A stretch of 64,000 nucleotides of DNA from Deltaproteobacteria bacterium. Lineage in GTDB: Bacteria > Myxococcota_A > Polyangia > Polyangiales > Polyangiaceae. Positions 8,676-63,473 of the stretch are shown here, piece by piece. Below the pieces are notes generated by a model. It was not told where the DNA came from, searched no databases, and saw only the letters and a list, made by a program, of their open reading frames with translations. The first letter of the stretch is position 1. Each line of letters starts with the position of its first letter. Made by a program: the position numbers and the translations under genes. The stretch is taken from assembly GCA_016875405.1 (NCBI GenBank), contig VGRJ01000001.1, positions 62,001 to 126,000 on the forward strand, in the 5' to 3' direction.

Positions 8676-10034
8676 ATGTCCCGCGGCTACATCCTCGTCG
8701 TCGACGACGAAGTCTCGATCCTGCAGACCCTCCGGCGAGCGCTCACGCTCGAGGGCTACGTCGTCGACGTGGCCGGAGGCGCGTCTGTCGCGCTCGAAAA
8801 GCTCGCGAAGCAGAGCTACGACCTAGCGCTGCTCGACGTCGCGCTGCCAGACGGCGATGGCGTCGCCGTGCTCGAGCGAATGCGAGCTGGCGGGGACGAT
8901 ACCTGCGTCGTCATGATGAGCGGCCACGCGACGGTCGACGCCGCGGTGCGGGCCACACGCCTCGGTGCCAGCGATTTCCTCGAGAAGCCACTCTCGACCG
9001 ATCGGCTCCTCTTGGTCGTCGAGAACCTCCTGCGCATGGTACGCGCGGAGGCGAAGGCGACCTCGCTCATCGCTCGCACCGGGCTCGATGGCGAGCTGCT
9101 CGGGTCGAGCGGCGCGATGGACGCGCTTCGCGATCAGATCGTCCGCGCAGCTCGAGCGAACGCGACCGTCATGGTCCGCGGGGAGCGAGGCACCGGCAAA
9201 GAGCTTGTCGCGCGAGCGCTCCATCGCCAGTCACGGCGCGCGGCCGGTCCCCTCGAGAAGCTGAACTGCGCGGCCGTTCCAGGCGAGCTCATCGAGAGCG
9301 AGCTGTTCGGCCACGAAGCCGGCGCATTCACGGGCGCGACACGACAGCGACGAGGGAAGTTCGAGCGCGCAAACGGCGGGACGCTGTTCCTCGACGAGGT
9401 GGGCGACATGCCGCTCACCATGCAGGCGAAGCTGCTCCGCGTGCTCCAAGAGCAAGAGATCGAGCGCGTGGGCGGGAGCGAGACGCTGAAGGTGGACGTG
9501 CGCGTCGTCGCCGCAACGAACCGCGATCTCGAGGCAGCCTGTGAGTCTGGCGCCTTCCGTGCAGATCTGTTCGATCGCCTCAACGTCCTGCCGCTCACCC
9601 TCCCCCCGCTCCGCGCGCGGCGCGAAGACATCCCCGAGCTCGCGCGTCACTTCCTCGGGCTCGTCGGCGCCGCGAACGATCGACCCGAGGTCCAGCTGAC
9701 GACGGACGCGCTCGACGCCTTGAGCGCGTACACCTACCCCGGGAATGTTCGAGAGCTCCGCAACGTCGTCGAGCGCCTCGTCATCCTGACTCCCGACGCA
9801 TCGGTCGATGCCGCCGATGTGCGCACCTGCCTTGGCTCGGGCGCCGCCCCCGCAGCGCGTGGGCTCTACCGCCCCGGGCTCCCGTTCCGCGTGCTGCTCG
9901 AGGAGGCGGAGCGAACGATCTTGGACGAGGCGCTGAGGCACCACGAAGGTCAGATGGCGAGCACGGCGCGGGCGCTCGATCTCGAGCGGAGCCACCTCTA
10001 CAAGAAGTGCAAGGCGCTCGGTCTGCGCGAGTGA
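8676..10034 (+). CDS. Sigma-54-dependent response regulator, NtrC/NtrX type
   Basis: A 452-residue three-domain regulator. Receiver domain: D10/D11, phospho-acceptor D54 in [10 protein letters not shown], and K104 in FLEKPLS. AAA+ domain: Walker A GERGTGKE (about 169-176, Arg replacing the usual Ser), the sigma-54 contact loop GAFTGA (216-221), Walker [13 protein letters not shown] (D240, E241) and the sensor region [12 protein letters not shown]. The C-terminus is a Fis-type helix-turn-helix ([20 protein letters not shown]), a pattern common in NtrX-like proteins. It should bind enhancer DNA and remodel sigma-54 polymerase closed complexes. No histidine kinase is adjacent, so the sensor is unknown. 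Divergent from the DUF4388/TPR gene. Confidence 0.95.
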
Positions 10035-48546: not shown

Positions 48547-49023
48547 TCAGGCCGTCGCCGACTCTGACTCGATCGGCTGGACCGGCGGGGCATCGATGAG
48601 CTCGATGAGGCTCATCGAGGCACCGTCGCCCCGGCGCGGCCCGAGCTTCACGATGCGGGTGTAACCGCCCGGACGCTCGGCCATGCGCTTCGCGAGATCG
48701 ACGAGGAGCTTCTCGACGAGGTCGCGCTTCGTGCCGTCGCGCTCGACTCCCCAACGGGGGAGGAACGAGCCGACGAGGCGCGCCACGTGGAGGCGCTTCG
48801 CCTTGTCCGACGCCGAGAGCTTGTCGTTCGGCGTGTACGCCACGACACCGAGGCGCTTGGCCTTGGTGATGAGGCGCTCAGTCACCCGGCGGAGCTCCTT
48901 CGCCTTGGCGTCGGTCGTGATGATTCGCTCGTGGTTGACCAAGTTGGCCGCCAAGTTGCGGAACATCGCGCGCCGGTGCGCCGTATTTCTACCAAACTGC
49001 CTGCCGTCTTTTCCGTGACGCAT
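48547..49023 (-). CDS. rplQ: 50S ribosomal protein L17
   Basis: A 158-residue L17. [20 protein letters not shown] at the start and [20 protein letters not shown] are diagnostic. It sits near the peptide exit tunnel on the large subunit. The C-terminal extension past about residue 130 ([20 protein letters not shown]) makes it longer than the 120-130 residue E. coli protein. Last gene of the ribosomal cluster, 82 bases after rpoA. Confidence 0.97.
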
Positions 49024-49105
49024 GGTGCTACCTCGATGTCGAGACTCGAGAAGTGACGCGTGTCGAGGGGACTCCCTGGCGACCGCTCACTGCCCGAACG
49101 GGGAC

Positions 49106-50134
49106 TTACTGGTTCCTCGCGGCCTGCCAGCGCTCGAGGAGCATCGGCCAGCTCTCGATCTTCATGCCGAGAGACAGGCCCATGCTGCTCAGGATCTCCT
49201 TGATCTCCTTGAGCGACTTACGACCGAAGTTCTTCGTCTTCAGCATGTCCTGCTCAGAGCGCTGCACCAGCTCGCCGATGAGCTGGATGTTCGCGTTCTG
49301 TAGGCAGTTCGCCGACCGCACGCTGAGCTCGAGCTCCTCGACCGAGCGGAAGAGGTTCTCGTTGAGAGGCTCCTCCTCACCACCCGGCGCGTAGTAGGTC
49401 TCCTCGACCTCCTCGAAGTTGATCCAGATGCTGAGCTGCTCCTTCAGGATTTTCGCCGCGAAGGCGACCGCGTCGGCCGGCGTCACCGCGCCGTTCGTCC
49501 AAACCTCGAGGGTGAGCTTGTCGTAGTCGGTGACCTGCCCGACGCGCGCGTTGGTGACGGTGTAGTTGACCTTGCGGATCGGCGAGAAGAGCGCGTCGAC
49601 GGGGATCGTCCCAAGCGCCATCGTCGCCGTCTTGTTGCGCTCGGCCTGGACGTACCCGCGGCTCACCGACACCGAGAGCTCCGCCTGCAGCGGGCCCTTC
49701 TTGTCGAGAACGCAGATGAGGTGGTCCGGGTTCAGGATCTTGAGACCATCGACGAGCTGGATGTCGCCGGCGAGGACGGGCCCGGGGCCCTCCTTGTCGA
49801 TGCGAACCGTGTAGCTCTTCGAGTCCTCAGCCTTGAAGACGACCTCCTTAAGGTTGAGGATGATGTCGCTCACGTCCTCGACGACGTCGGGGATGGTCGT
49901 GAACTCGTGGAGGGCGCCCTCGATGCGCAGCGCCGTGACCGCTGCGCCCTGGAGCGACGACAGCAGCACGCGGCGCAGCGAGTTGCCGATGGTCGTGCCG
50001 TAGCCGCGCTCAAGCGGCTCGCACACGAACTTCGCGTAGGTGCCCGTAGCGGTCTCGTTGTCGATCGACACGCCGCGCGGACGGATCAGCTCGCGCCAGT
50101 TGCGCGCGATGAACTCTGCCTTCACTTCACTCAT
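49106..50134 (-). CDS. rpoA: RNA polymerase alpha subunit
   Basis: A 342-residue alpha subunit. The N-terminal dimerisation domain is complete ([38 protein letters not shown]), and the C-terminal domain holds the UP-element and activator-binding determinants ([45 protein letters not shown]). A strong AGGAGA Shine-Dalgarno lies about 7 bases before the ATG. It is set apart from rpsD by 170 bases that contain two hairpins, unlike other junctions in the cluster. Confidence 0.98.
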
Positions 50135-50304
50135 GATGCTGTCTCCTGATTCTTGGGTTCACCGTGCGAAGGTCCCGCCTCACGTACCGCACTCGGTCGC
50201 GTGAGGCCGCCTCTGCCCACGGAACATCGTTGCTCCGCGCACCGCCCAACGTCGCGTGGTGGGTGCGCACATCGTGTCGACTCCGGTGAAGGAGCCGCCA
50301 CGAA
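50135..50304 (-). promoter_or_regulatory. Structured rpsD-rpoA intergenic region with two hairpins
   Basis: Two inverted repeats stand in tandem: GCCTCACG/CGTGAGGC with an 15-base loop at 50177-50207 (8-bp perfect stem) and GCGCACC/GGTGCGC at 50237-50268. This is the longest gap inside the cluster. It may be an extra promoter leader or an RNA control site for rpoA; S4-mediated control of alpha operons is known in other bacteria, but no similarity is claimed. Confidence 0.5.
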
Positions 50305-50934
50305 TCAGCGGCTGTAGTACTCGACGATCATCTGCTCGTCGATCGCGGGCTCGTTGAGCTCTTCGCGCACCGGCGCGCCCTTCAGCGTGCCGACGAAATT
50401 GCCGCGGTCGACCTCGAGCCAGCTGACGACGGGACGCGTCGCGGCACCCGCGACGGCTGCCTCGACACGCTTGAACTTGCGCGCCTCCTCGACGAGCTCG
50501 AACTTGTCGCCCTCCTTGGCGAGGTAGGAAGGAATGTCGACGCGCTTGCCGTTCACCTTGAGGTGGCCGTGGCGAAGCAGCTGCCGAGCGTCACTGCGCG
50601 AGGCGGCGAAGCCGAGGCGATAGACGATGTTGTCCAGCCGACGCTCGAGGAGCCCGAGCATCTCCGAGCCCGTGCGGCCCTTGCGGCGTGACGCATTGTG
50701 GTAGTAGCCGCGGAACTGCGTCTCGAGGACGCCGTAGATGCGGCGAACCTTTTGCTTCTCACGGAGACGGATCGCGTACTCCGAGAGCTTGATGCGGCCC
50801 TGACCGTGCTGCCCCGACGGGTACGGACGGCGCGTGTACGAGCACTTCTCGGTGTAGCAACGGTCGCCCTTGAGGTAGAGCTTCATCCCCTCACGGCGGC
50901 AGAGCTTGCAGACGGGACCAATGTAACGAGCCAT
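50305..50934 (-). CDS. rpsD: 30S ribosomal protein S4
   Basis: A 209-residue primary-binding protein of the 16S 5' domain. N-terminal zinc-type cysteines are present (CKLCRREGMKLYLKGDRCYTEKC has four Cys in the zinc-finger pattern), followed by the S4 RNA-binding core (RLDNIVYRLGFAASRSDARQ; RHGHLKVNGKRVDIPSYLAK). In many bacteria S4 represses its own operon. Coded 24 bases after rpsK. Confidence 0.98.
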   Translation of the reverse strand: MARYIGPVCKLCRREGMKLYLKGDRCYTEKCSYTRRPYPSGQHGQGRIKLSEYAIRLREKQKVRRIYGVLETQFRGYYHNASRRKGRTGSEMLGLLERRLDNIVYRLGFAASRSDARQLLRHGHLKVNGKRVDIPSYLAKEGDKFELVEEARKFKRVEAAVAGAATRPVVSWLEVDRGNFVGTLKGAPVREELNEPAIDEQMIVEYYSR

Positions 50935-50958
50935 GACGTGTTCCTATGGGCTGTGCGC

Positions 50959-51348
50959 TCAGACGCGGCGGCGCTTGGGGGGACGGCAACCGTTGTGGGG
51001 GATCGGGGTGACGTCACGGATCACCGTGACGCGAAGCCCGGCCGACTGAAGGGCGCGGAGCGCGCTCTCGCGTCCGGCGCCGGGCCCCTTCACGAAGACG
51101 GCGACCGTGCGCATCCCGCTCTCCATCGCGGTACGCGCGGCATGCTCCGCGGCAACCTGCGCGGCGAACGGCGTCGACTTGCGCGAGCCCTTGAAGCCGC
51201 GCGCGCCAGCCGAGCACGCTGCGACCGCGTGGCCGGTCACGTCGGTGATCGTGATGATGGTGTTGTTGAAGGTCGAACGAATGTGGGCAACGCCCAGCGC
51301 GACGTTCTTCTTGACCTTCTTCTTGGTTTTGGCCTTCGGATTCGCCAT
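50959..51348 (-). CDS. rpsK: 30S ribosomal protein S11
   Basis: 129 residues, platform protein of the small subunit contacting mRNA and 16S helix 23. Lys-rich N-terminus, then [20 protein letters not shown] and the C-terminal [11 protein letters not shown] that are near-universal in S11. 20 bases after rpsM. Confidence 0.98.
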
Positions 51349-51368
51349 GACGATGTTCTCTCAGCCGA

Positions 51369-51731
51369 TCACTTGCGGATGATGCGCTTGCGGGGGCCTT
51401 TGCGCGTACGGGAGTTCGTGTGGGTGCGCTGCCCGCGAACCGGCAGGCCCTTGCGGTGACGGAGGCCACGGTAGCAGCCGAGGTCCATCAGGCGCTTGAT
51501 GTTCATCTGAATCTCGCGGCGGAGATCGCCCTCGACCTTGTAGTCGGCGTCCAGGATCTCGCGGATCGAGCGGAGGTCCGCGTCCGTGAGCTCATCGACG
51601 CGCTTCGTCGGGGGGATGTTGGCCTTCGCGACGATCTGGCGGGCCAGCGAAGGTCCGATGCCGAAGAGGTAGGGAAGCGCGTAAAGGACGTGCTTCCGGC
51701 GGGGAAGATCGACTCCTGCGATGCGTGCCAT
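51369..51731 (-). CDS. rpsM: 30S ribosomal protein S13
   Basis: 120 residues. [20 protein letters not shown] at the start and [20 protein letters not shown] near the end are typical; the basic tail [10 protein letters not shown] reaches the P-site tRNA. It lies 15 bases after rpmJ. Confidence 0.98.
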
Positions 51732-51746
51732 GGTTCAGTTCCTTCC

Positions 51747-51863
51747 TCAGCAGCCCTGACGCTGCTTGTGACGCGGGTTCTCGCAAATGATGCGAACGAC
51801 GCCGCGGCGCCGCACGACTTTGCACTTGTCGCAGATCTTCTTCACGCTCGGTCGGACTTTCAT
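51747..51863 (-). CDS. rpmJ: 50S ribosomal protein L36 (zinc form)
   Basis: A 38-residue protein read from the ATG at 51863: [20 protein letters not shown] then [18 protein letters not shown]. Cys11, Cys14, Cys27 and His32 make the zinc ribbon of the C+ form of L36. It sits between infA and rpsM as in most bacteria. Confidence 0.96.
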
Positions 51864-51877
51864 GACTGCCTGTCTGT

Positions 51878-52132
51878 CTATTTGTGTCGGTAGGTGATTC
51901 GGCCGCGGGTCGGGTCGTAGGGCGAGACCTCGACCGTGACACGATCCCCCGGGAGGATTCGGATGTAGAACTGGCGCATCTTGCCGCTGATGGTCGCTAG
52001 GACGCCGAGACCGTTGTCAGCGACGACTCGGAACATGGCGTTCGGCAACGCCTCGTCCACGACGCCAGTGAACTGCATCTTGTCGTCCTTGGGCTCCTTC
52101 GGTGCCCGCAGCTCTTTGTTTCTACGCGCCAT
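51878..52132 (-). CDS. infA: Translation initiation factor IF-1
   Basis: An 84-residue IF-1; the OB-fold core is [53 protein letters not shown]. It binds the ribosomal A site during initiation. A basic N-terminal extension of about 14 residues ([15 protein letters not shown]) precedes the usual start; an internal ATG at 52078 would cut slightly into the normal length, so I keep 52132. No methionine aminopeptidase gene is present between adk and infA, where map often lies. Confidence 0.95.
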
Positions 52133-52141
52133 GGGCAGTGA

Positions 52142-52785
52142 TCACTTCACCGTGTCCAGCGACGCGACGACGCGCCCGGTCACTTCTTCGGGTTTCCCTA
52201 CGCCATCGATTCGGCGCAGGAGGCCACGCTCCTCGTAGTAGGGGAGCAGGGCGGCCGTCATCGAGTCGTAGGCGTCCAACCGCGTGTTGACGGCTTCGGG
52301 CTGGTCATCCTTGCGATGTTCCAGCGAGCCCGGGTCCTTCAACAACTCCGGGGGCGGGGGATTGTATAGAAGGTGATAGATTTGTCCAGACCGTTTGTCG
52401 GTCCGGCGATGAATGAGGCGCTCCTCGAGGAGCCCGCGGGCCACATCGAGCTGCACCACCGCGGAGAGGACGAGCCCGCGCAAGGCCAGCATCGCCTCCA
52501 GCGCCTCAGCTTGCGGCACCGTTCGCGGGAAGCCGTCGAGCAAGAAGCCCGACCCGCAGTCCGCATCCTTGGTCCGGCGCTCGATGAGTCCGATGACGGC
52601 GGCGTCGGGGAGGAGACCGCCCTCATCCATGAGCTTGCGGTACTCGGGCTCGAGAGTACCGGCAGCCTTCGCCGCCCGAAGCATGTCCCCGGTGGAGAGG
52701 TGCGCGAGGCCGTAGCGCTCGCAGAGCACCTTGGCCTGAGTCCCCTTCCCTGAGCCGGGAGGTCCCACGAGGACGACGATGGTGC

Positions 52786-52789
<4 letters not shown>
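52142..52789 (-). CDS. adk: Adenylate kinase
   Basis: A 215-residue long-form adenylate kinase interconverting ATP, ADP and AMP. P-loop GPPGSGKGTQ (9-18), AMP site LSTGDMLRAA, GFLLDGFPRTVPQAEAL, and a LID domain (RRTDKRSGQIYHLLYNPPPP) with no zinc cysteines. The ATG overlaps the secY stop by 4 bases, so adk is coupled to secY as in many S10-spc-alpha clusters. Confidence 0.97.
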
Positions 52790-54186
<1,397 letters not shown>

Positions 54187-54257
54187 GAGGCGTTGTGGTG
54201 CGCGATGAGCGTGCGGGGGCGGGCGGCGCGACCTTCGTCGTCCGCCGCCCCTCGTGG

Positions 54258-54716
54258 TCAGCCCTGAGCGGCCGCGGCGACGACTTCAGCCTTGCCGCCG
54301 GCCTTCTCGATCTTGGCCTTCGCGCCCGCGGAGAACGCGTGGGCCTTGACCGTGAGGCTCTTGCCGAGCTCACCGTCGCCCAGAATCTTGACGCCGTCGA
54401 CGGCGCCACGGACGAGCCGCTTGGCGCGAAGAGCCTCGATCGTGACGACAGAACCGGCGTCGAACACCTCGAGGTCGCTCACGTTGACGTTGGCGATCCG
54501 CGCGGCGAAGAGGTTCTTGAAGCCGAGCTTCGGCAGGCGTCGACCCATCGGGGTCTGCCCGCCCTCGAACGCCGGCTTGCGGTGGCCGCAGCGGGCCTTC
54601 TGGCCCTTCTGGCCGCGACCGGCGGTCTTCCCGAGACCCGAACCGACACCGCGACCGACTCGGGTGCGGGGCTTTTTGGCGCCCTCGGGCGGCCTGAGAT
54701 TCGAAAGGATCGACAT
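54258..54716 (-). CDS. rplO: 50S ribosomal protein L15
   Basis: 152 residues from the ATG at 54716 ([20 protein letters not shown]), one base after the rpmD stop. The Gly-rich [20 protein letters not shown] and [20 protein letters not shown] segments are typical of L15, a late assembly protein of the 50S. A start 24 bases upstream (54740) would overlap rpmD and is not needed. Confidence 0.97.
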
Positions 54717-54717
54717 G

Positions 54718-54909
54718 TTACTGGACCTCCTCGACGGCAACGAGGTGAATCACCTTCTTGATCATTCCGCGAAACGATGGCGTGTTCGCGACGGTCACGC
54801 TGCGGCCGATGCGGCCAAGCCCGAGACCTTTCAGCACCGAACGCATCGCGGGCGGCTCACTGATCATGCTCTTCTTCTGCGTCACCTTGATCTGCTTCGC
54901 CAGGCTCAT
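54718..54909 (-). CDS. rpmD: 50S ribosomal protein L30
   Basis: 63 residues. [20 protein letters not shown] and the [11 protein letters not shown] turn are characteristic. Its ATG overlaps the rpsE stop by 4 bases and its stop is one base from rplO, showing tight coupling. Confidence 0.96.
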
Positions 54910-55505
54910 GCGTCGCCTCCAGTCTCTTCAGCGGGCTTGGTCGCGCCGGGGAGCGACGTCACCGAAGGCTTGATGCGGGGAGCCGAGACGCCAGCGCTGC
55001 GCGAGCGATGGCCCAACCTGTCCCGCTCGATCTCTCGCTTGCGCGCGAACTCCTCGGGAGCCCGCAGCGACTTGAGAGCCTCGATGGTCGCGTTGACGAC
55101 GTTGTGCTTGTTGCCCGAGCCGAGCGACTTTGTGAGCACGTCCGTGATGCCCGCCGACGCCACGACCGCTCGCACCGCGCCGCCTGCGATAACGCCCGTA
55201 CCGGGGCTGGCAGGCTTCAGGAGAACGCGACCCGCGCCCTTCTCGCCAAGCACGTCGTGCGGAATCGTGGTGCCATCCAGCGGCACCTTGAACATGTTCT
55301 TCCGCGCCTGGTCATTGCCCTTGCGGATCGCCTCGGGGACCTCGTTCGCCTTGCCGAGGCCGACGCCGATGTGCCCCGCCTCATCGCCCACGACGACGAG
55401 CGCCGAAAAGCTGAAGCGCCGGCCGCCCTTGACGACCTTCGCGACGCGGTTGATGTGGATGACGCGCTCCTTGAGGCGCTCCTCGTCGATTTGATCGAAT
55501 GCCAT
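54906..55505 (-). CDS. rpsE: 30S ribosomal protein S5
   Basis: 199 residues from the ATG at 55505 ([20 protein letters not shown]). Core motifs are [18 protein letters not shown] and [18 protein letters not shown]. Longer than the usual 160-170 residues because of a C-terminal tail ([20 protein letters not shown] onward) rich in Ser, Pro and Ala. Acts in translational accuracy at the mRNA entry site. Confidence 0.97.
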
Positions 55506-55516
55506 CTTCGTAGCCC

Positions 55517-55882
55517 TCAGAAGTTGAGTCCGGCTTCGCGCGCCGCGTCGGCGAGCGCCTTGATGCGGCCGTGGTAGCGGTACCCGTTGCGGTCGAAGAC
55601 CACCTTGTCGATGCTCTTCGACCTGCACATCTCGGCGATGAGGGCGCCGACCTTCTTGGCCTCGTCGCTCTTCGTTCCGTCGAGGTTGGTGCGGAGGTCC
55701 TTGGAGAGCGTCGACGCAGCGGCGAGCGTCTTGCCCGTCGTGTCGTCGATCACCTGCGCGTAGATGTGCCGCGCGCTGCGGAACACGCTGAGGCGAGGAC
55801 GCTCCGTGGTCCCGTTGACGGACTTGCGAATGCGCAGCTTGCGGCGCTCGCGACCTTCCAGTTTTCGGGGTGCAGCAGTCAT
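55517..55882 (-). CDS. rplR: 50S ribosomal protein L18
   Basis: 121 residues from the ATG at 55882 ([20 protein letters not shown]), one base after the rplF stop; the frame is open further upstream but that part lies inside rpl[21 protein letters not shown] and the C-terminal [20 protein letters not shown] are diagnostic. Binds 5S rRNA. Confidence 0.97.
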
Positions 55883-55883
55883 T

Positions 55884-56468
55884 TCACTTGCCTGCCTTTC
55901 CGGCCTTCTCGCGAATCTTCTCGCCCTTGTAACGAACGCCCTTGCCACCGTACGGCTCCGGCGGACGGAAGCCACGGATCGTCGCGGCGGTCTGACCGAT
56001 GAGGGCCTTGTCGCTCCCGAAGAGGGTGAGGATGGTGCCCTTGGATTCCTTCGGGATGTCGGCGGTGATGCCCTTCGGGAGCGGATACTCGATTTGATGC
56101 GAGTAGCCGAGGATGCAGGTCAGCGTCGTGCCCTTCAGCTCGACGCGGTAACCGGTGCCGACCAGCTCGAGCGTTCGCTCGTAGCCCGTCGTCACGCCCT
56201 GCACCATGTTCGCGATCGTCGCTCGGGTCATGCCCTGGAGACGCGCGCCGTCGCGGCCAGGCGCCGACGACGTGACGGTGAGGCTGCCGTCCGCCTGGTT
56301 GAGTTGGATGCTCGAGTGCAGCGGGAAGCTGAGCTCCCCCTTGGGCCCCTTGACCTTGACCTCGGACGCGGCGACGGAGACCGTGACGCCCTTCGGCGTG
56401 ACCACGGGCTTCTTTCCGACGCGAGACGTCTTCGGCGCCAGCTTATTCTCGATTTGCGCGGGTTCCAT
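55884..56468 (-). CDS. rplF: 50S ribosomal protein L6
   Basis: 194 residues from the ATG at 56468, sharing one base with the rpsH stop (TGATG). [38 protein letters not shown] and [20 protein letters not shown] are typical. The N-terminal [13 protein letters not shown] and C-terminal Lys-rich tail make it slightly longer than E. coli L6 (177). Confidence 0.97.
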
Positions 56469-56866
56469 CACCACACCTCGCAGAGGAGCTCTCCGCCCAC
56501 CTTCCGGCGACGGGCTTCGCCGTCCGTCATCACGCCGCTCGAGGTCGAGAGGATCGCGATGCCCAGCCCGGAGAAGACGTTGGGGATATTGTCGTGCGTC
56601 ACGTAGACGCGACGCCCGGGCTTCGAGACGCGACGGATACCGTCGATCGCCCCGCGCTTGTCGCGGTCGTACTTCAAGACGATCTCGATGGTCTTGTGAC
56701 CACGAGCATCCTCCCCCTCTCGTACGTCGGCGATGAAGCCCTCGGATTTCAGGATCTCGGCCACGCGCAACTTCAAGCGGCTGCCGGGCATGACCATTCG
56801 GTCGTGCCGCGCGCTCGAGGCGTTGCGGATGCGGGCCAGCATGTCAGCGATGGGATCGTTCACCAT
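56468..56866 (-). CDS. rpsH: 30S ribosomal protein S8
   Basis: 132 residues from the ATG at 56866 (MVNDPIADMLARIRNASSAR), with GGTGAG just upstream; a GTG at 56875 is an alternative adding 3 residues. The C-terminal GLGIAILSTSSGVMTDGEAR and GGELLCEVW are diagnostic. S8 is a 16S central-domain binder and, in E. coli, the translational repressor of the spc operon. Confidence 0.97.
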   Translation of the reverse strand: MVNDPIADMLARIRNASSARHDRMVMPGSRLKLRVAEILKSEGFIADVREGEDARGHKTIEIVLKYDRDKRGAIDGIRRVSKPGRRVYVTHDNIPNVFSGLGIAILSTSSGVMTDGEARRRKVGGELLCEVW

Positions 56867-56908
56867 GGTGCTCACCAGCTTTGATTCGACACGTCCTGAC
56901 TTGCTGGG

Positions 56909-57094
56909 CTACCAGCTCGCCTTGATCACTCCGGGAAGCTCGCCGCGAAGCGCGAAGTTCCGCAGGCAAAGGCGGCACATCTGGAAGTCGCGGTAGTACC
57001 CGCGGCTTCGACCGCACACCTTGCAGCGGTTCCGGTGCCGAGTGGAGAACTTCGGGGGGCGATTCAGCTTCGCGATGGCTTGGGCACGCGCCAT
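56909..57094 (-). CDS. rpsN: 30S ribosomal protein S14, zinc (type Z)
   Basis: 61 residues with a zinc site at C24, C27, C40, C43 (CKVC, CRLC), i.e. the short zinc-binding S14, not the 101-residue zinc-free form. [20 protein letters not shown] at the N-terminus and [11 protein letters not shown] at the end match the family. Located between rplE and rpsH as usual. Confidence 0.97.
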
Positions 57095-57183
57095 GTTTCT
57101 TTGGTCCTTTGCGTTTTCGGAGACGCGCGGCGTTCACCGCGCTCGAAGTCGTTGGGGGGGCGCGACGGTCGCGCCGTTGGGAT

Positions 57184-57783
57184 TCAGGTGCGGAAGGGCA
57201 TGCCGAGCTGACGCAGGAGCTCGCGGCCTTCCTCGTTGTTCTTCGCGGTGGTCACGAACGAGATGTTCATTCCGCGGATGGCATCGACCTTGTCGTAGTC
57301 GATCTCCGGGAAGATGATCTGCTCGCGCAGGCCCATCGTGAAGTTGCCCGCCCCGTCGAAGCCCTTCGGGCTCACGCCTTTGAAATCGCGCACGCGCGGC
57401 AGGGCGAGGTTGAAGAGGCGATCCGCGAACTCCCACATGCGGTTGCGGCGGAGGGTCACGGAGAGGCCGATCGGGAGACCCGCGCGGAGCTTGAAGCTCG
57501 CGATCGACTTGCGCGAGCGGCGCACGACGGGCTGCTGGCCCGTGATTAGTCGGAGATCCTCGCGCGCCGTGTCCACGACCTTCGGGTTCTGGACGGCGAC
57601 ACCGAGGCCGATGTTGATGACGATCTTGTCGAGACGCGGCACCTGCATCGGGTTCGCGTAACCGAATTTCTCGCGCATCCCTGCGCGGACCTTCGTCTGG
57701 TAGTGCTTCGAGAGGCGCGGCACGTAGCCGGCTTCGTAGCCGGTCGACTTCGCCTCTGCGTTGTCCTTTTTCTCTTTCGCCAT
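57184..57783 (-). CDS. rplE: 50S ribosomal protein L5
   Basis: 199 residues from the ATG at 57783 ([20 protein letters not shown]); an AGGTG lies about 7 bases upstream. Typical segments are [16 protein letters not shown], SKIAxFKLR-like [20 protein letters not shown] and [20 protein letters not shown]. About 20 extra N-terminal residues precede the usual start. It binds 5S rRNA and contacts the P-site tRNA. Confidence 0.97.
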
Positions 57784-57843
57784 TGTCACACCTGGGGGAT
57801 CAGGAGGCTCTTTGCCTTATGACCGTCGAATCGTCGTCGTCGC

Positions 57844-58164
57844 TCAGGCCAGCTTCAGCGCCGCGCCCTTCGACGCGGACACGCGGACCTTGTTTCCTGC
57901 CTCGTCCTTGGCCACCTTGACTCGGGTCGGCTTGTCGGTCGCCGAGTCGATCGGCATCACGTTCGAGATGTGGATCGAGGCTTCCTTCGAGATGCGGCCG
58001 CCCTCGCCACCCTGCTGAGTCGGACGGGTGTGGCGCACGACGATGTTGAGACCGTCGACGATAACGCGGTCGCCGCCCTTGAGGATGCGCTTGATGGTTC
58101 CCCGCTTGCCCTTCTCTTTGCCGGCGATCACCTGGACCAGGTCGCCCACCTTCACGCGTTGCAT
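57844..58164 (-). CDS. rplX: 50S ribosomal protein L24
   Basis: 106 residues from the ATG at 58164, sharing one base with the rplN stop. KOW-motif core VKVGDLVQVIAGKEKGKRGT and IVDGLNIVVRHTRPTQQGG are typical; L24 is an assembly initiator on 23S rRNA. Confidence 0.97.
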   Translation of the reverse strand: MQRVKVGDLVQVIAGKEKGKRGTIKRILKGGDRVIVDGLNIVVRHTRPTQQGGEGGRISKEASIHISNVMPIDSATDKPTRVKVAKDEAGNKVRVSASKGAALKLA

Positions 58165-58532
58165 CACAGCACCTCCGGCGCGAGCGAGACGATCTTCATG
58201 AACTTGCGGGCGCGAAGCTCGCGAGCAACCGGCCCGAAGATGCGGGTGCCGACAGGCTCCTTGGCGTCGTTGATGAGGACAGCGCTGTTCGTGTCGAACT
58301 TGATGTAGCTGCCGTCGGTGCGACGCGACTCCTGCACGGTGCGGACGATGACGGCCTTGGCAACGTCACCCTTCTTCACCTTGGAGTTGGGCATGCACTC
58401 CTTGATCGCGACCACGATGATGTCGCCGAGGCCGGCGTATCGGCGGCGCGAGCCGCCGAGGACCTTGATGCACTTGAGCGTCTTCGCGCCGGAGTTGTCG
58501 GCGGCTTCGAGCTCGGTCTCTACCTGGATCAT
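58164..58532 (-). CDS. rplN: 50S ribosomal protein L14
   Basis: 122 residues, the usual length. [20 protein letters not shown] and [20 protein letters not shown] are near-universal L14 sequences; the protein bridges the two subunits. 24 bases after rpsQ, overlapping rplX by one base. Confidence 0.98.
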
Positions 58533-58556
58533 GGTTTCAGCTCCTGTCGGGTGCGC

Positions 58557-58934
58557 TCAGGCCTGGACGCCCAGAACCTCGTCCTTCAGCTGCAGGCCTT
58601 CGATGTCGGCCGAGCGAGCGATGAGGCGAGTGACGATCCAGCGCTTGTTTTTCGAGAGCGGGCGGTGCTCCTGAATCTCGACGCGGTCGCCGGGGAGGTA
58701 TTCGTTCTTCTCGTCGTGCGCCTTGTAGCGGGCGCGCGAGGTCAGGTACTTCTTGTACTTCTCGTCGAGGGTCTGACGGATGACCTCGACGGTGACCGTC
58801 TTATCCATCTTGTTGCTCTTGACCGTGCCGACGAGCTTTCGGCGGAAGCCGCGCTTCGACTCGGTCGTCTCGACGGCCGGAGACTTGGCGCCGATGCTCT
58901 TGACGCTTGGGCGGGGGGGCGGAACCTTAGCCAT
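58557..58934 (-). CDS. rpsQ: 30S ribosomal protein S17, extended
   Basis: 125 residues, against 80-90 in most bacteria. The core is RKLVGTVKSNKMDKTVTVEV ... EYLPGDRVEIQEHRPLSKNK. Extra sequence lies at both ends: about 34 residues before the core (MAKVPPPRPSVKSIGAKSPA onward) and about 15 after (SADIEGLQLKDEVLGVQA). The upstream start is the only ATG in the extension. Primary 16S 5'-domain binder. Confidence 0.95.
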   Translation of the reverse strand: MAKVPPPRPSVKSIGAKSPAVETTESKRGFRRKLVGTVKSNKMDKTVTVEVIRQTLDEKYKKYLTSRARYKAHDEKNEYLPGDRVEIQEHRPLSKNKRWIVTRLIARSADIEGLQLKDEVLGVQA

Positions 58935-58968
58935 GGGTGGTGTCCTTCGGTGGTCTCGCGGGGGGCGT

Positions 58969-59163
58969 TCAGCCCACCTTCGCCTTCTCGGTCAACAGGG
59001 TCTTCACCCGCGCGAGGTTGCGGCGGGCGCGGCGGATCGACGCGGTGTCGTCCAGCTGGTTCGTGTAGTTCTTGAGACGAGCGTCGAAGATCTCGCGACG
59101 AATCTGCTTCTCGATCTCTTGCAGCCGTTCGGCGTTGCACTCGCGAAGTTCTTTGAGGTCCAC
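58969..59163 (-). CDS. rpmC: 50S ribosomal protein L29
   Basis: 64 residues starting at a GTG (59163; MDLKELRECNAERLQEIEKQ) with AAGGAG about 7 bases upstream. Two-helix protein near the exit tunnel; IRRARRNLARVKTLLTEK is typical of the C-terminal helix. The frame is open well upstream but that part lies over rplP on another frame and is not L29. Confidence 0.96.
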   Translation of the reverse strand: MDLKELRECNAERLQEIEKQIRREIFDARLKNYTNQLDDTASIRRARRNLARVKTLLTEKAKVG

Positions 59164-59173
59164 GGCTGTCTCC

Positions 59174-59593
59174 TTACTGGCTGAGGAAGTCGCGCGCGAT
59201 GAAGCGGCACTCGAGCGGAAGTTTGTGAGCGGCGATCCGGAACGCCTCGCGCGCCACGTCCTCGGGGACGCCGGCGAGCTCGTAGAGGACGCGGCCCGGC
59301 TTGACCGGAGCGCACCACTCTTCCGGGTTGCCCTTGCCTCCACCCATTCGGACCTCGAGGGGCTTCTTGGTGACGGGGCGATCGGGGAACACTCGGATCC
59401 AGAGCTTGCCTGCGCGCTTGCAGTGGCGCTGAATCGCCATACGAGCAGCCTCGATCTGGCGGGCGGTGAGGCGACCGGGCTCGAGGGTCTGCAGCGCGAA
59501 GTCGCCGAAGGACACGTCGGAGCCCTTCCAGGCGAGGCCGCAATTGCGACCCTTCTGCGCCTTGCGGAATTTCGTTTTCTTGGGTTGGAGCAT
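59174..59593 (-). CDS. rplP: 50S ribosomal protein L16
   Basis: 139 residues. [20 protein letters not shown] and [20 protein letters not shown] are diagnostic; the protein shapes the A-site side of the large subunit. 63 bases after rpsC. Confidence 0.98.
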
Positions 59594-59656
59594 GGTGGTC
59601 TCTCTCGAGGAGCGGGCGCCGCGAGGGCGGCTCCCGCGAAGAGTTGGGTTGGAGCG

Positions 59657-60352
59657 TCAGGTCCCGATGGCGCGGGCGCGGCGCTGGAGCACCTCACCCT
59701 TGAAGATCCAAACCTTGACGCCGATCATGCCGACCTTGGTCCGGGCCTCGGCGAGGCCGAACTCGATGTCGGCACGGAGAGTGTGGAGCGGCACGCGGCC
59801 CTCACGGTAGGTCTCGACGCGGGACATCTCGGCTCCGCCCAGTCGGCCGGCGCAGCGAATGCGGATGCCCTTCGCGCCAAACTTCATCGCGATCGAGACG
59901 GCCTTCTTCATCGCGCGGCGGAACGCAATGCGGCGCTCGAGCTGCTGGGCGACGTTCTCGGCGACGAGTTGGGCGTTGGTCTCGGCCTTGCGGACCTCCT
60001 GGACGTCGATGAAGACCTCGTTTTCGGTGAAGGACGTCACGCCGGGGAACTTCGGCTCGTCCTTCGCGGCGGTCGTCAAGTTGCCGCTCTTCAGCGTCTC
60101 GATGCCCTTACCGCCCTTGCCGATGACCATGCCCGGGCGCGCAGTGAAGACGATGACCTTCGCGCGGTTCGCGGCGCGCTCGATTTCGACGCCTGCGATG
60201 CTCGCGTTGTAGAGGTATTGCTTGATGGCGCGCTTGATGCGGACGTCCTCATGCAGCCACTGCTTGTACTTGGCGCCGGACTGGTACCACTTGCTGCTCC
60301 ACGTCTTGATGACGCCGACGCGGAAGCCATAGGGGTGGGTTTTCTGTCCCAT
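59657..60352 (-). CDS. rpsC: 30S ribosomal protein S3
   Basis: 231 residues. [20 protein letters not shown] start, the KH domain ([24 protein letters not shown] loop intact) and [20 protein letters not shown]. Part of the mRNA entry helicase. 75 bases downstream of rplV, across a repeat-containing spacer. Confidence 0.98.
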
Positions 60353-60381
60353 GTTTCTTCGGTTCCTTAGTGCTTCGAGGG

Positions 60382-60414
60382 GCCGAGCTGCTTCGAGTAG
60401 CCGAGCTGGTTCGA
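60382..60414. repeat. Two 15-bp direct repeats (14/15 identical) in the rplV-rpsC spacer
   Basis: GCCGAGCTGCTTCGA (60382-60396) and GCCGAGCTGGTTCGA (60400-60414) repeat with a period of 18 bases. A partial third copy (GCTTCGAGG) precedes them. Confidence 0.7.
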
Positions 60415-60420
60415 ATCGCG

Positions 60421-60439
60421 GATCAGCTCAGCGCTGATC
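60421..60439. repeat. 7-bp stem-loop at the rplV stop codon
   Basis: GATCAGC and GCTGATC flank a 5-base loop; the stop codon of rplV (60428-60430) lies in the loop, next to the direct repeats. It may influence the stability or translation of the rplV-rpsC mRNA. Confidence 0.5.
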
Positions 60440-60763
60440 GAGCTCGATGGAGATGTGGGAGATGCCCTTGGTGACGCGGGTCGCACGGCCCATCGCGCGC
60501 GGACGCCAGCGACGCCAGAACTGGTTCGGGGCCTTGTCGACCGTCGCCTTGCTGATGAAGAGCTTGTCTGGGTCGGCGTTGTTCTGACGAGCGTTCGCGA
60601 CCGCGCTCTCGAGGAGCTTCTTGACCACGTCTGCGGCGCTCTTCTGCGTGAACTGAAGGAGCTGGAGGGCCTCAGCCACGTTGCGACCCTTCACGAGGTT
60701 CGCGATCACGCGCGCCTTCCGGGGGGCGATGCGGCTGTACCTTGCGCTGGCCTTGCTGATCAT
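60428..60763 (-). CDS. rplV: 50S ribosomal protein L22, first gene of the cluster
   Basis: 111 residues from the ATG at 60763 (MISKASARYSRIAPRKARVI) with GAGG about 9 bases upstream. AEALQLLQFTQKSAADVVKK and GRATRVTKGISHISIELDQR are typical; its loop lines the exit tunnel. The frame is open far upstream, but only these residues are L22. In most bacteria rpsS and rplB precede it; here none do. Confidence 0.96.
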   Translation of the reverse strand: MISKASARYSRIAPRKARVIANLVKGRNVAEALQLLQFTQKSAADVVKKLLESAVANARQNNADPDKLFISKATVDKAPNQFWRRWRPRAMGRATRVTKGISHISIELDQR

Positions 60764-60791
60764 CGGTCGATTCCTCGGGCTCTTCGTGCCC

Positions 60792-60990
60792 CCGACCGCG
60801 GTTCGGTCGGAGCGGTTCCTCGTGCGCAGGATTGCGCCGGAGGAGGGTTCAGTCGTTGAGGGTCCGTCGTACGCCGTGGCTCGCTGCCTGGAGGAGAGAT
60901 CCTCGAGCCCTCGTCGCGTCGCCGGCAGGAGTGTAAGTCCGCTCGGCGGCCGATGAGGCAGGCGGCGTCCAGCGACGCCGTTACGGGAAA
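60792..60990 (-). promoter_or_regulatory. Structured leader upstream of rplV
   Basis: The predicted mRNA leader of about 230 bases contains perfect inverted repeats: GGCGTC-CAGC-GACGCC on the plus strand at 60964-60979 and CCGACCG-CGGTT-CGGTCGG at 60792-60810, the latter about 30 bases before the start codon. A weaker GAGGA/TCCTC pair lies between. R-protein operons are often controlled by leaders that bind one of their own proteins; which one would act here is unknown. Confidence 0.45.
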
Positions 60991-60998
60991 GGGAGCGC

Positions 60999-61027
60999 TT
61001 TCTAGCAGGGTCGTCGGGACAGCGCAA
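60999..61027 (-). promoter_or_regulatory. Candidate promoter for the rplV cluster
   Basis: On the minus strand TTGCGC, a 17-base spacer and TAGAAA with a TGC extended -10 form a plausible vegetative promoter. Transcription would start near 60990, about 230 bases before rplV. Confidence 0.5.
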
Positions 61028-61153
61028 GTCCCGAAATGAGATGCGCGTCCGGCGGTCGAGGTGCCCGTGAGGTCGGGCAGGTTCGACGGGCGCAGAGTCG
61101 CTCCATCCACCACGCGTTGGCAAGCGGCGCGTCGCGTGAGAGACTGACCGGCC

Positions 61154-62089
61154 GTGCGGCGATCCTTCCCGGCCGTCCTCGTCGCCCTCGGCGGCCTTAC
61201 GGGTTGCGGCCCGGGAGCACCGGCGCGCCCGGCAACCACCCCGGGGGCCCAGGCGGCGACGAAGCCCGTCGCGACGGCGCGGAGCGAGGTCGGGGTGACC
61301 GCAGCGGTGGCGCGGGTCGAGGTGGGACAAGCCGCGGCACCCCCGAGGCCCGCGGAAGTGCCCCGCGCGGCAGGCGCGGAGCCGCCCGCGTCCGTTGACG
61401 AGTCGACACCCGCGCGGCCGGCGTGCCCAGGCGAGATGACGCTCCTGCCAGGTGGCGTGTGCATTGACCGCTGGGAGGGGAGCCTGGTTCAGGTCGACGA
61501 GCGAGGGCGCGAGCGGCCGTGGTCGCCGTTTCTCACGGTGAAGCAATCTCGCCAGCCGCTTCGAGCGGTCTCGGTCCCGAACGTCGTCCCCCAGGGGTAC
61601 ATCAGCGGGATTCAGGCCGAACGTGCATGCAAGCTCGCGGGCAAGCGCCTGTGCACGGCCCCCGAGTGGGAGAAGGCTTGCCGTGGCCCCGGCGGGACCC
61701 TGTACCCGTACGGGAACGCGCGCCGCGCCCACACGTGCAACGACGACGGGCGACCCGTGCACCCGGTGTCGGAGGCGACGATTCGGATGAAGCTCCCGGA
61801 GAGCAGGCTCTGGTACGAAAACATGGAGCACCCGGTGATCAACCAGCTGCCCAACACCCTTCGACGCACGGGCGAGCTCGGCGAGTGTACGAACGACTTC
61901 GGCGTGTTCGACATGGTGGGCAACCTGCACGAGTGGATCGCCGACGCCGACGGGACGTTCCGTGGCGGCTTCTACATGGATACGCGGGTCAACGGTGAGG
62001 GCTGCATGTATGCGACCACGGCGCACGGTAAGGGCTACCACGACTATTCGACCGGCTTCAGGTGCTGCAAGGATGCGACGACGGAGTGA
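61154..62089 (+). CDS. Lipoprotein with formylglycine-generating-enzyme (SUMF1) fold
   Basis: A 311-residue protein from a GTG at 61154. Lipobox VALGGLTGC (Cys18) then a Pro/Ala-rich linker (to about 90). The FGE-sulfatase domain follows: CPGEMTLLPGGVCIDRWEGS, ACKLAGKRLCTAPEWEKACR, GVFDMVGNLHEWIADADGTF, and the C-terminal STGFRCCKD. This family covers true formylglycine-generating enzymes and many non-catalytic binding proteins; the catalytic Cys pair of the former is not evident, so enzyme activity is unproven. The stop overlaps the next gene's start region by 17 bases. Confidence 0.85.
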   Translation: MRRSFPAVLVALGGLTGCGPGAPARPATTPGAQAATKPVATARSEVGVTAAVARVEVGQAAAPPRPAEVPRAAGAEPPASVDESTPARPACPGEMTLLPGGVCIDRWEGSLVQVDERGRERPWSPFLTVKQSRQPLRAVSVPNVVPQGYISGIQAERACKLAGKRLCTAPEWEKACRGPGGTLYPYGNARRAHTCNDDGRPVHPVSEATIRMKLPESRLWYENMEHPVINQLPNTLRRTGELGECTNDFGVFDMVGNLHEWIADADGTFRGGFYMDTRVNGEGCMYATTAHGKGYHDYSTGFRCCKDATTE

Positions 62090-63473
62090 GCTCGCGCTCG
62101 CGCTCGTGACCCTCGGGCTCGCGAGTGGCTGCAAGAAAAGGGACGAGCGCCCGGAGGAGGTGCCCGTTCCGCCGCGCAACGCCGCAACGCTCGACGTCGT
62201 CAATACGGAGCTCGGGACGGGGCTCGCCCTTCGACTCGGCCTCGCGCCGACGAGCGTTCGTTGGGAGCGCGTGGTGGTGCTCGACGACGAGCGCGCCGTG
62301 CTGCTGGGACGCGACAACGACGTCGCGTACGCGCTGCGGACGAACGACCGCGGACGAACCTGGTCGAGCGTGTCCGCGACCGTCAAATCGTGGGCGAGCT
62401 GGGGCCTCGCGTCCTCGGGCGCGCTCGCGCTGGTGTCAGGGGCGCCGGAGCGTCCTAAGACCGCAGGGCCAGCCGTGCCGAAAGCGACACCGGTGACCGA
62501 GGTGACGTGGTGGTACGCCGCGCCGGGAGACAAGTCGCTCGACGGGCCGCGCGCGCTGCTGCCGGGCGAAGGGCCGCTCGCCGGCGTCACGCTTCCGAAC
62601 GCGGCCGGGAGCCCGGCGTTCGTGGAGGAGGGCGTGTCGCTGTTGGGCGGCCGCAGCGGCAAGAACGCGGTCCTCGTAAACGCGAAATCGTTAGGCTCGG
62701 CGGCTGCTCCGCCCAACGAGCTGGACATGCAAGCGTTCGTGCCGTTCCCGTTCGGCAGGCCGCCGAAGCTGCTCTCGGTGGGCAAGGCGGGGGTCGAGCT
62801 GCGCAGCTGGCCCGCCCCAGGAGAGCCGCTCGGCGTGGCAAGCGCGATCCCGGGGTTACGTCCGGACGCGACGACGCTCGCCCAGCTCTCGGAGGGGCCG
62901 AGCTGCGAAGCGGGAGCCTTCTCGTATCGTCGACTCGCCGGAGCCCAGCCGTGGGTCGTCGGGGTGTCGGGGGAGCGCGCCCTCGCGTTCAAGCTCCCCG
63001 CGTCGGAGGTCGCGCGGCTCAGCTGCGCGGCCGATGCCGTGGTCACCGAGACGACCGTCGTCGACCCGAGCGATCCGGAGCGCAAGCGTCGCGTGCCGCA
63101 GCTCGTACGATGCGGCCAGGATGGCAGATGCTCCGAGCCGAAGGCGCCGCCGTTCGCGGTCTGGAGCGAGAAGCACGAGCGCGAGATTTGGTCCGTGCCA
63201 ACCGCACGGGGGCTCGTCGCCGTGATGCGCGCGCGCACCGGCACGCGCTGGGGGCTCTACCTCGGACAATCCAACGACGGCGGCACTACCTTCGAGCTCC
63301 CGCGGACGATCGGGGAAGGTGCCGAGTCGCGAAGTGAGCTCGCCTTCGGTGCGCTGCTGCGCTTCCAGTCGCGCCTCGTGCTCCTGCTCTCGGCCGACGT
63401 CGGCTCGACGGGCCGACGCGGTTGGTACGCGCTCGCGTCGGAGGACGATGGAAACAACTGGGGCCCGCCCTGA
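62073..63473 (+). CDS. Lipoprotein with Asp-box (BNR) repeats
   Basis: A 466-residue protein from the ATG at 62073, overlapping the FGE-like gene by 17 bases. Signal and lipobox LVTLGLASGC (Cys20). Three Asp-box-like motifs of the S/T-x-D-x-G-x-T-W type are visible: RTNDRGRTWSSV, SNDGGTTFEL and SEDDGNNWGPP, as in beta-propeller sialidase-like folds. No sialidase catalytic Arg triad is claimed. Probably a surface-anchored propeller that binds sugars or proteins. Confidence 0.76.
   Translation: MRRRSELALALVTLGLASGCKKRDERPEEVPVPPRNAATLDVVNTELGTGLALRLGLAPTSVRWERVVVLDDERAVLLGRDNDVAYALRTNDRGRTWSSVSATVKSWASWGLASSGALALVSGAPERPKTAGPAVPKATPVTEVTWWYAAPGDKSLDGPRALLPGEGPLAGVTLPNAAGSPAFVEEGVSLLGGRSGKNAVLVNAKSLGSAAAPPNELDMQAFVPFPFGRPPKLLSVGKAGVELRSWPAPGEPLGVASAIPGLRPDATTLAQLSEGPSCEAGAFSYRRLAGAQPWVVGVSGERALAFKLPASEVARLSCAADAVVTETTVVDPSDPERKRRVPQLVRCGQDGRCSEPKAPPFAVWSEKHEREIWSVPTARGLVAVMRARTGTRWGLYLGQSNDGGTTFELPRTIGEGAESRSELAFGALLRFQSRLVLLLSADVGSTGRRGWYALASEDDGNNWGPP

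Follow-up and report, generated by a model that had tools for sequence, protein, structure and literature searches.

Why does the S10-spc-alpha gene cluster of this member of the Polyangiaceae begin at rplV, and where are the genes that should precede it? Few gene orders in bacteria are as conserved as that of S10-spc-alpha, which serves as a phylogenetic and assembly yardstick. The window, by which we mean the whole 64,000-nucleotide stretch of DNA analyzed here, covers positions 62001 to 126000 of a 189,945-bp contig (C1). A preliminary description of its sequence stated that the S10 operon is broken between rpsS and rplV, that 24 genes from rplV to rplQ follow in the usual order, and that a divergent lipoprotein gene has taken the place upstream of rplV. 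Indeed, gene calls and Pfam matches agree with all of this, and rpsS itself is found on another contig, C81. The rplV side of the break is made up as follows.

Positions 48547 to 60763, minus strand: cluster of 24 genes from rplV to rplQ (second half of S10, then spc and alpha), from gene calls.
Positions 60428 to 60763, minus strand: rplV (protein L22), which heads the detached downstream half; Pfam PF00237, E = 7.6e-34, with the start at 60763 taken from the gene call.
Positions 61154 to 62089, plus strand: gene for a lipoprotein with an FGE-sulfatase domain, divergent from rplV and now its upstream neighbor; Pfam PF03781, E = 1.5e-13.
Positions 62106 to 63473, plus strand: lipoprotein gene with a weak BNR-repeat signal in Pfam; relatives lie upstream of rplV in genomes G147 and G126.

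The genes of the cluster were named from sequence and order, with Pfam used only for rplV and for rpsC, which follows directly after it in the gene calls; rpsN was counted from the list of open reading frames. The start codon of the FGE-sulfatase lipoprotein gene is uncertain, and the gene caller favors 61436. Since relatives of the BNR lipoprotein are found 5′ of rplV in G147 and G126, this junction is common to genera g1 and g12. We considered a contig-edge effect as the cause of the break and ruled it out, the edge being 67 kb away.

The six earlier genes had been expected elsewhere in the genome, and all of them were found on contigs other than C1. Whether they form a separate operon has a divided answer: five of them stand together as tuf-rpsJ-rplD-rplW-rplB-rpsS on C81, and rplC lies apart on C106. 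A profile search of the contigs placed the two ends of the five-gene run, with rplD, rplW, and rplB between them.

C81, positions 135 to 443: rpsJ.
C81, positions 2245 to 2553: rpsS.

C81 (locus L003 of the window genome, G000) starts inside the end of tuf, at positions 1 to 126. The contigs of many relatives also start about 2.2 kb before rpsS, inside tuf, which is what one would expect if short-read assembly breaks off at duplicated tuf genes. On the 3′ side of rpsS there is a 13-bp hairpin with a run of T (L003, 2575 to 2614), then a gene for a Sel1-repeat lipoprotein, and about 20 kb of unrelated DNA extends downstream of rpsS on this contig. By its sequence the hairpin resembles a terminator; terminator-like hairpins follow rpsS in 26 of 50 cases against 12.6 in the control, an enrichment of only twofold. 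The canonical contiguous order rpsJ-rplC-rplD-rplW-rplB-rpsS-rplV-rpsC is absent from the window genome. Its S10 operon is in three pieces on three contigs, with both rplC and the rpsS-rplV junction separated.

These two separations differ in age. The relocation of rplC is older than the rpsS-rplV break and is seen throughout the class, a statement that rests on the spacer between rpsJ and rplD: it is at most 70 nt in all 54 class genomes where it was measurable, so rplC is missing from that place in all 54. In the window genome, rplC on C106 (locus L008) stands before rlmE, a 23S rRNA methyltransferase gene, and it is usually found just upstream of this gene. Among 20 genomes compared, the distance to rlmE is at most 300 nt in 15 and at most 2 kb in 2; in the remaining 3, rlmE was not found. 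A single rplC copy was found in the window genome (L008, 9235 to 9901), and it has a frame break at about 9310 to 9320; the copy in G147 is one open frame. This frame break is probably an error in the assembly sequence.

The rpsS-rplV break is a recurrent trait of the family and is not peculiar to the strain of the window. We searched for rpsS and rplV in 80 Polyangiaceae genomes of at least 90% completeness, among them closed genomes of Sorangium and Minicystis, and 77 had both genes. With adjacency defined as less than 600 nt between the Pfam matches, the two genes are adjacent in only 13 of the 77. They are 0.95 to 39 kb apart on one contig in 19, with strand and order kept in every one of these, and 1.5 to 11 Mb apart on one large contig in 6, on opposite strands in 5 of these. 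The other 39 genomes have them on different contigs, some of which could be contig-edge cases. The 19 collinear gaps, together with the 6 genomes at megabase distance, are the pattern of operon disconnection by gene insertion, of which the window genome shows the end state only. A look for the same break in related genomes had been proposed as a check; the two remaining members of the genus, G147 and G233, have this junction open as well. Elsewhere in the order, all 19 genomes of families f2, f3, f5, f7, f8, and f9 have rpsS next to rplV, and families f4 (6 of 6) and f6 (2 of 2) have the two genes separated. In the class outside the order, they are adjacent in 92 of 94 genomes among the matches listed. 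Two genomes from there, G004 and G006, were considered as breaks; by coordinates both genes lie within about 320 bases of contig starts, so we left these genomes out of the break count.

Some single genomes in this survey call for comment. The rplV gene of G186, a two-contig genome of 13.2 Mb, matches in two pieces (L066, 4060 to 4388), which suggests a frameshift. G202 and G220 each have two S19 and two L22 copies on different contigs and are probably mixed bins.

Within the fetched regions we measured seven junctions from rpsJ to rplP, and, the missing rplC aside, none other than rpsS-rplV was open. The six other junctions gave 340 spacer measurements with medians of 3 to 21.5 nt and a maximum of 103 nt. 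The rpsS-rplV spacer gave 34 measurements with a median of 111 and a maximum of 11,011 nt, the remaining genomes being separated. Genes in the gap or on its flanks differ between lineages and are common to close relatives. In the window genome and G147, and partly in G126, the break has Sel1 and BNR lipoproteins on its flanks; seven genomes of another subclade have a different low-complexity lipoprotein before rplV or in the gap. A Pfam scan of eight flanking or inserted proteins named a protein kinase, an amidohydrolase, a Sel1-repeat protein, and a weak BNR match, and no Pfam family was found for four of the eight.

What distinguishes this junction from the others? A promoter-like motif is conserved upstream of rplV, and in the window it is found at the following site.

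Positions 60999 to 61027, minus strand: promoter-like site TTGCGC-N17-TAGAAA with an extended −10 (TGC), followed by a GC-rich and a C/T-rich stretch; read from the sequence and enriched in relatives.

The motif lies about 235 nt before rplV. A plain sigma-70 scan gave no site on either strand of 60300 to 61300, and the motif emerged only by comparing relatives. We wrote the pattern as TTG[ACT] followed after 16 to 19 nt by a −10-like box, and used dinucleotide shuffles as controls. It is present upstream of rplV in 38 of 44 separated family genomes (0.5 in shuffles), in 8 of 11 adjacent family genomes with a spacer longer than 100 nt (0.1 in shuffles), and in 8 of 12 adjacent genomes from other families of the order (0.1 in shuffles); since the pattern was drawn from the same sequences, these counts describe and do not test. 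The distance from the −10 box to rplV has a median of 211 nt and a range of 112 to 317 nt in 46 genomes. Judged by its conservation, the motif is older than the breaks, being present in intact relatives too. Two adjacent genomes with spacers of 37 to 39 nt, G068 and G138, have neither the promoter motif nor the leader described below. The sequence suggests that this motif acts as a promoter.

In many family members, conserved blocks CGUAACGGC and GUACGACGG are found around a variable stem between the promoter motif and rplV. This element would be transcribed from the promoter-like site as a structured leader. In the window it occupies these positions.

Positions 60856 to 60999, minus strand: structured leader RNA of rplV (models R1 and R2), supported by covariation and by a score of 109.8 bits with R2, a model that includes the window.
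Positions 60978 to 60986, minus strand: CCGTAACGG, part of the conserved core of the leader.
Positions 60864 to 60873, minus strand: CGTACGACGG, part of the conserved core of the leader.

Two alignments of these leaders, A1 and A6, have a conserved structure supported by covariation, which is one of the marks of ribosomal protein leaders (r-leaders). The first, A1, is a plain MAFFT alignment of 20 leaders of one subclade plus G216. Its pairing consists of a helix CCGU/ACGG, CG/CG, six inner-stem pairs, and an outer stem, and 93.1% of cells are paired, compared with 78.6% in shuffled controls, 0 of 500 of which were as high, and 33 to 51% when the alignment was slid by 1 to 3 columns. Two-sided changes number 45, against 13 in the control. 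In the window subclade, a larger leader has 17 pairs in its inner hairpin and a small second hairpin as well. In A6, an alignment of 17 window-subclade sequences fitted to its structure, 93.7% of cells are paired against 85.0%, and covariation is 0.339 against 0.184, with 0 of 500 as high. Folding of the window leader as a single sequence is unexceptional (z of −1.3, with 25 of 200 shuffles folding as well), and single-sequence z-scores are weak for most of the window's own clade, so the case for the leader rests on covariation.

The second mark of an r-leader, a consistent place in the 5′ UTR of a ribosomal protein operon, is seen in the matches from the 80 genomes, with the predicted promoter implying that the element would be transcribed. 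Model R1 gave 24 matches in the 80 whole genomes, 23 of them 21 to 156 nt upstream of rplV and one a weak stray, and R2 gave 26 matches in 26 genomes, all 46 to 177 nt upstream of rplV. Taken together, 49 of 50 matches lie directly before rplV on the same strand, and the two sets, which do not overlap, make up 49 of the 80 genomes. Eighteen of the matched genomes are outside the models, 13 with R2 and 5 with R1, and G182, one of the R1 genomes, is a near-duplicate of a model member. R1 also matches before rplV in the sister-family genome G179 (E = 1.8e-4). The other 31 of the 80 family genomes have no R1 or R2 match; the first pass of covariance-model searches scores part of the candidates, and the leader counts are lower bounds. 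No Rfam family reached its gathering score in the window, L003, or L008, and the best matches below threshold are unrelated.

Leaders in the fully split family f4 look different. Six loci of this family (L084, L086, L088, L090, L092, and L094) have another conserved block pair before rplV, GTGGCTGC...GACGCACTGG, possibly a second leader type. In the window, the region from 60860 to 60960 has, besides the core, a second conserved internal loop (CGGCCRCCG / CCGGTGACGCG), and the window-type leader may possibly have a second binding site there.

What might this leader bind? Many r-leaders, but not all, mimic the rRNA site of the protein that they bind. In a scan of E. coli 16S and 23S rRNA only, we found GUAACGG at 260 of 16S with ACGA nearby at 279, in a topology unlike that of the leader. 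We take this region to be helix 11, a uS17 site. Available sections of PMC10931766 describe uS17 as a primary 16S binder. This protein is encoded in the downstream half, and the resemblance gives a lead to a candidate ligand, and only a lead. By analogy, the form of the element, with invariant internal-loop bases between covarying stems, is most likely that of an autoregulatory r-protein leader. Alternatively, it could be a protein-independent attenuator or a stabilizer of the 5′ UTR, and judging from sequence several leaders could form an alternative local hairpin, GGCCG-UAA-CGGCC. But invariant internal-loop bases beside covarying stems, placed before one ribosomal protein gene only, are typical of r-leaders as described in PMC7247131, and we regard an attenuator or stabilizer as rather unlikely.

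We propose that rpsS-rplV is a weak seam in the S10 operon of the Polyangiaceae and of two sister families in our sample, and we consider this explanation probable. The promoter before rplV, which intact relatives would have as well, and the long structured mRNA leader present in much of the family would mean that transcription of the half from rplV to rplQ begins independently and that this half probably responds to its own product: excess free ribosomal protein would bind the leader, and expression would drop. Co-transcription of the two halves would then be unneeded, so DNA inserted between them would be tolerated. Accessory genes could pile up, widening the gap from about 0.3 kb to tens of kilobases with order and strand kept, and later rearrangements could carry the halves megabases apart. 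A more far-reaching version holds that the rplV leader is a new class of ribosomal protein-binding RNA, that it replaced control at the head of the operon, and that it made the second half self-regulated, causing the repeated unzipping. Its ligand would be encoded in the downstream half and could be uS17, binding at a site that resembles helix 11, or L22. We put this version forward tentatively, as a possibility to which we give less than even weight.

Tolerance would make the split neutral, and selection is the competing cause. Separate control of the two halves might be favored, for example, in slow-growing myxobacteria with large genomes, and not merely tolerated; the repeated losses at one seam and the elaborate conserved leader on the downstream half would suit such an adaptive split. 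But intact relatives already have the promoter-like motif, and the inserted genes are unrelated accessory ones (kinase, amidohydrolase, lipoproteins), as neutral insertion predicts. We judge an adaptive split to be unlikely.

Counts of how often the seam has opened vary with the tree and with whether breaks are taken as irreversible. A FastTree phylogeny of eight concatenated ribosomal proteins unites the split families f1, f4, and f6 in one clade with support of 0.999 to 1.0, and the adjacent members are scattered within f1. With irreversible breaks, the maximum likelihood tree requires 21 losses, or 16 after collapse of nodes below 0.9. A recount without rows of little data gave 19 and 12 losses for all rows, and dropping six doubtful rows gave 17 losses, then 13, 11, and 8 at cut-offs of 0.8, 0.9, and 0.95. 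Trees from each operon half alone gave 14 and 19 losses, down to 6 at 0.95, and Fitch parsimony with re-joining allowed gave 10 changes. The rpsS-rplV junction was probably lost 8 to 21 times. The single well-supported clade and the split state of every f4 and f6 genome (8 of 8) would also be accounted for by a single early break in the common ancestor of f1, f4, and f6, if the halves were later re-joined several times, for instance where the intact region of a relative replaced the split one. But the adjacent members, which occur here and there in both subclades, have gene order and strand exactly preserved; the gaps form a graded collinear series (same strand in all 19) that fits insertion, and flanking genes differ between split lineages. 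We find such an ancient break quite improbable. An assembly or binning artefact, in which the halves are truly adjacent or one half comes from another organism, deserves hardly any credence: the assembly has 218 contigs and C81 starts inside tuf, but C1 continues for 67 kb beyond the break, rpsS is followed on C81 by about 20 kb of unrelated DNA, both same-genus genomes have the same break with related neighbors on both sides in G147, and five one-contig genomes together with G186 (on one 13.2-Mb contig) have the halves at least 1.5 Mb apart, closed relatives that make an artefact very unlikely.

Returning to the weak seam, the Polyangiaceae let the unraveling of S10 be seen at one place, and sequenced species span all its stages, from a long spacer up to halves that lie megabases apart. 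An internal promoter together with an undescribed leader RNA is the concrete, testable reason that we propose for the break, and the question of what holds conserved operons together becomes open to experiment. The break is also a warning for pipelines that take a disrupted S10 operon to indicate misassembly.

In open-licence PMC papers we found neither repeated breakage at a single seam inside S10 in one family nor this leader of rplV. The available portion of PMC7247131 covers 20 r-leader motifs, and that of PMC10931766 reports that the S10 leader of E. coli binds L4. Going by these portions, the rplV leader is like known r-leaders in being a structured, covarying 5′-UTR RNA before a ribosomal protein operon in one lineage, and differs from them in structure and in place, directly before rplV and not before rpsJ or rplB. 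In the available portion, Table 1 of PMC7247131 includes no leader of an operon headed by rplV, nor any from Myxococcota. Closest to the rplV leader are two entries: a borderline L2 leader, found in Alphaproteobacteria ahead of rplB-rpsS-rplV-rpsC, and an L20 leader that precedes rpsT in Deltaproteobacteria. An unusual organization of the S10-spc-alpha locus in one lineage has likewise been described for Leptospira, according to the accessible text of PMC2481283. The closest parallel for the break itself comes from the excerpted text of PMC8046335, where the rpoBC-str-S10-spc-alpha array of Gammaproteobacteria and Bacilli has insertions at junctions and then full separation in some descendants, and where the authors hold that insertion relaxed selection on synteny. 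The Polyangiaceae are alike in junction insertion followed by full separation, so the process is already of a known kind. The S10-related examples in that text lie between operons (rpoBC-str and str-S10), and one example from Bacilli lies inside the rpoBC operon. Unlike these cases, the seam in the Polyangiaceae is inside S10, between rpsS and rplV, and has opened many times in one family.
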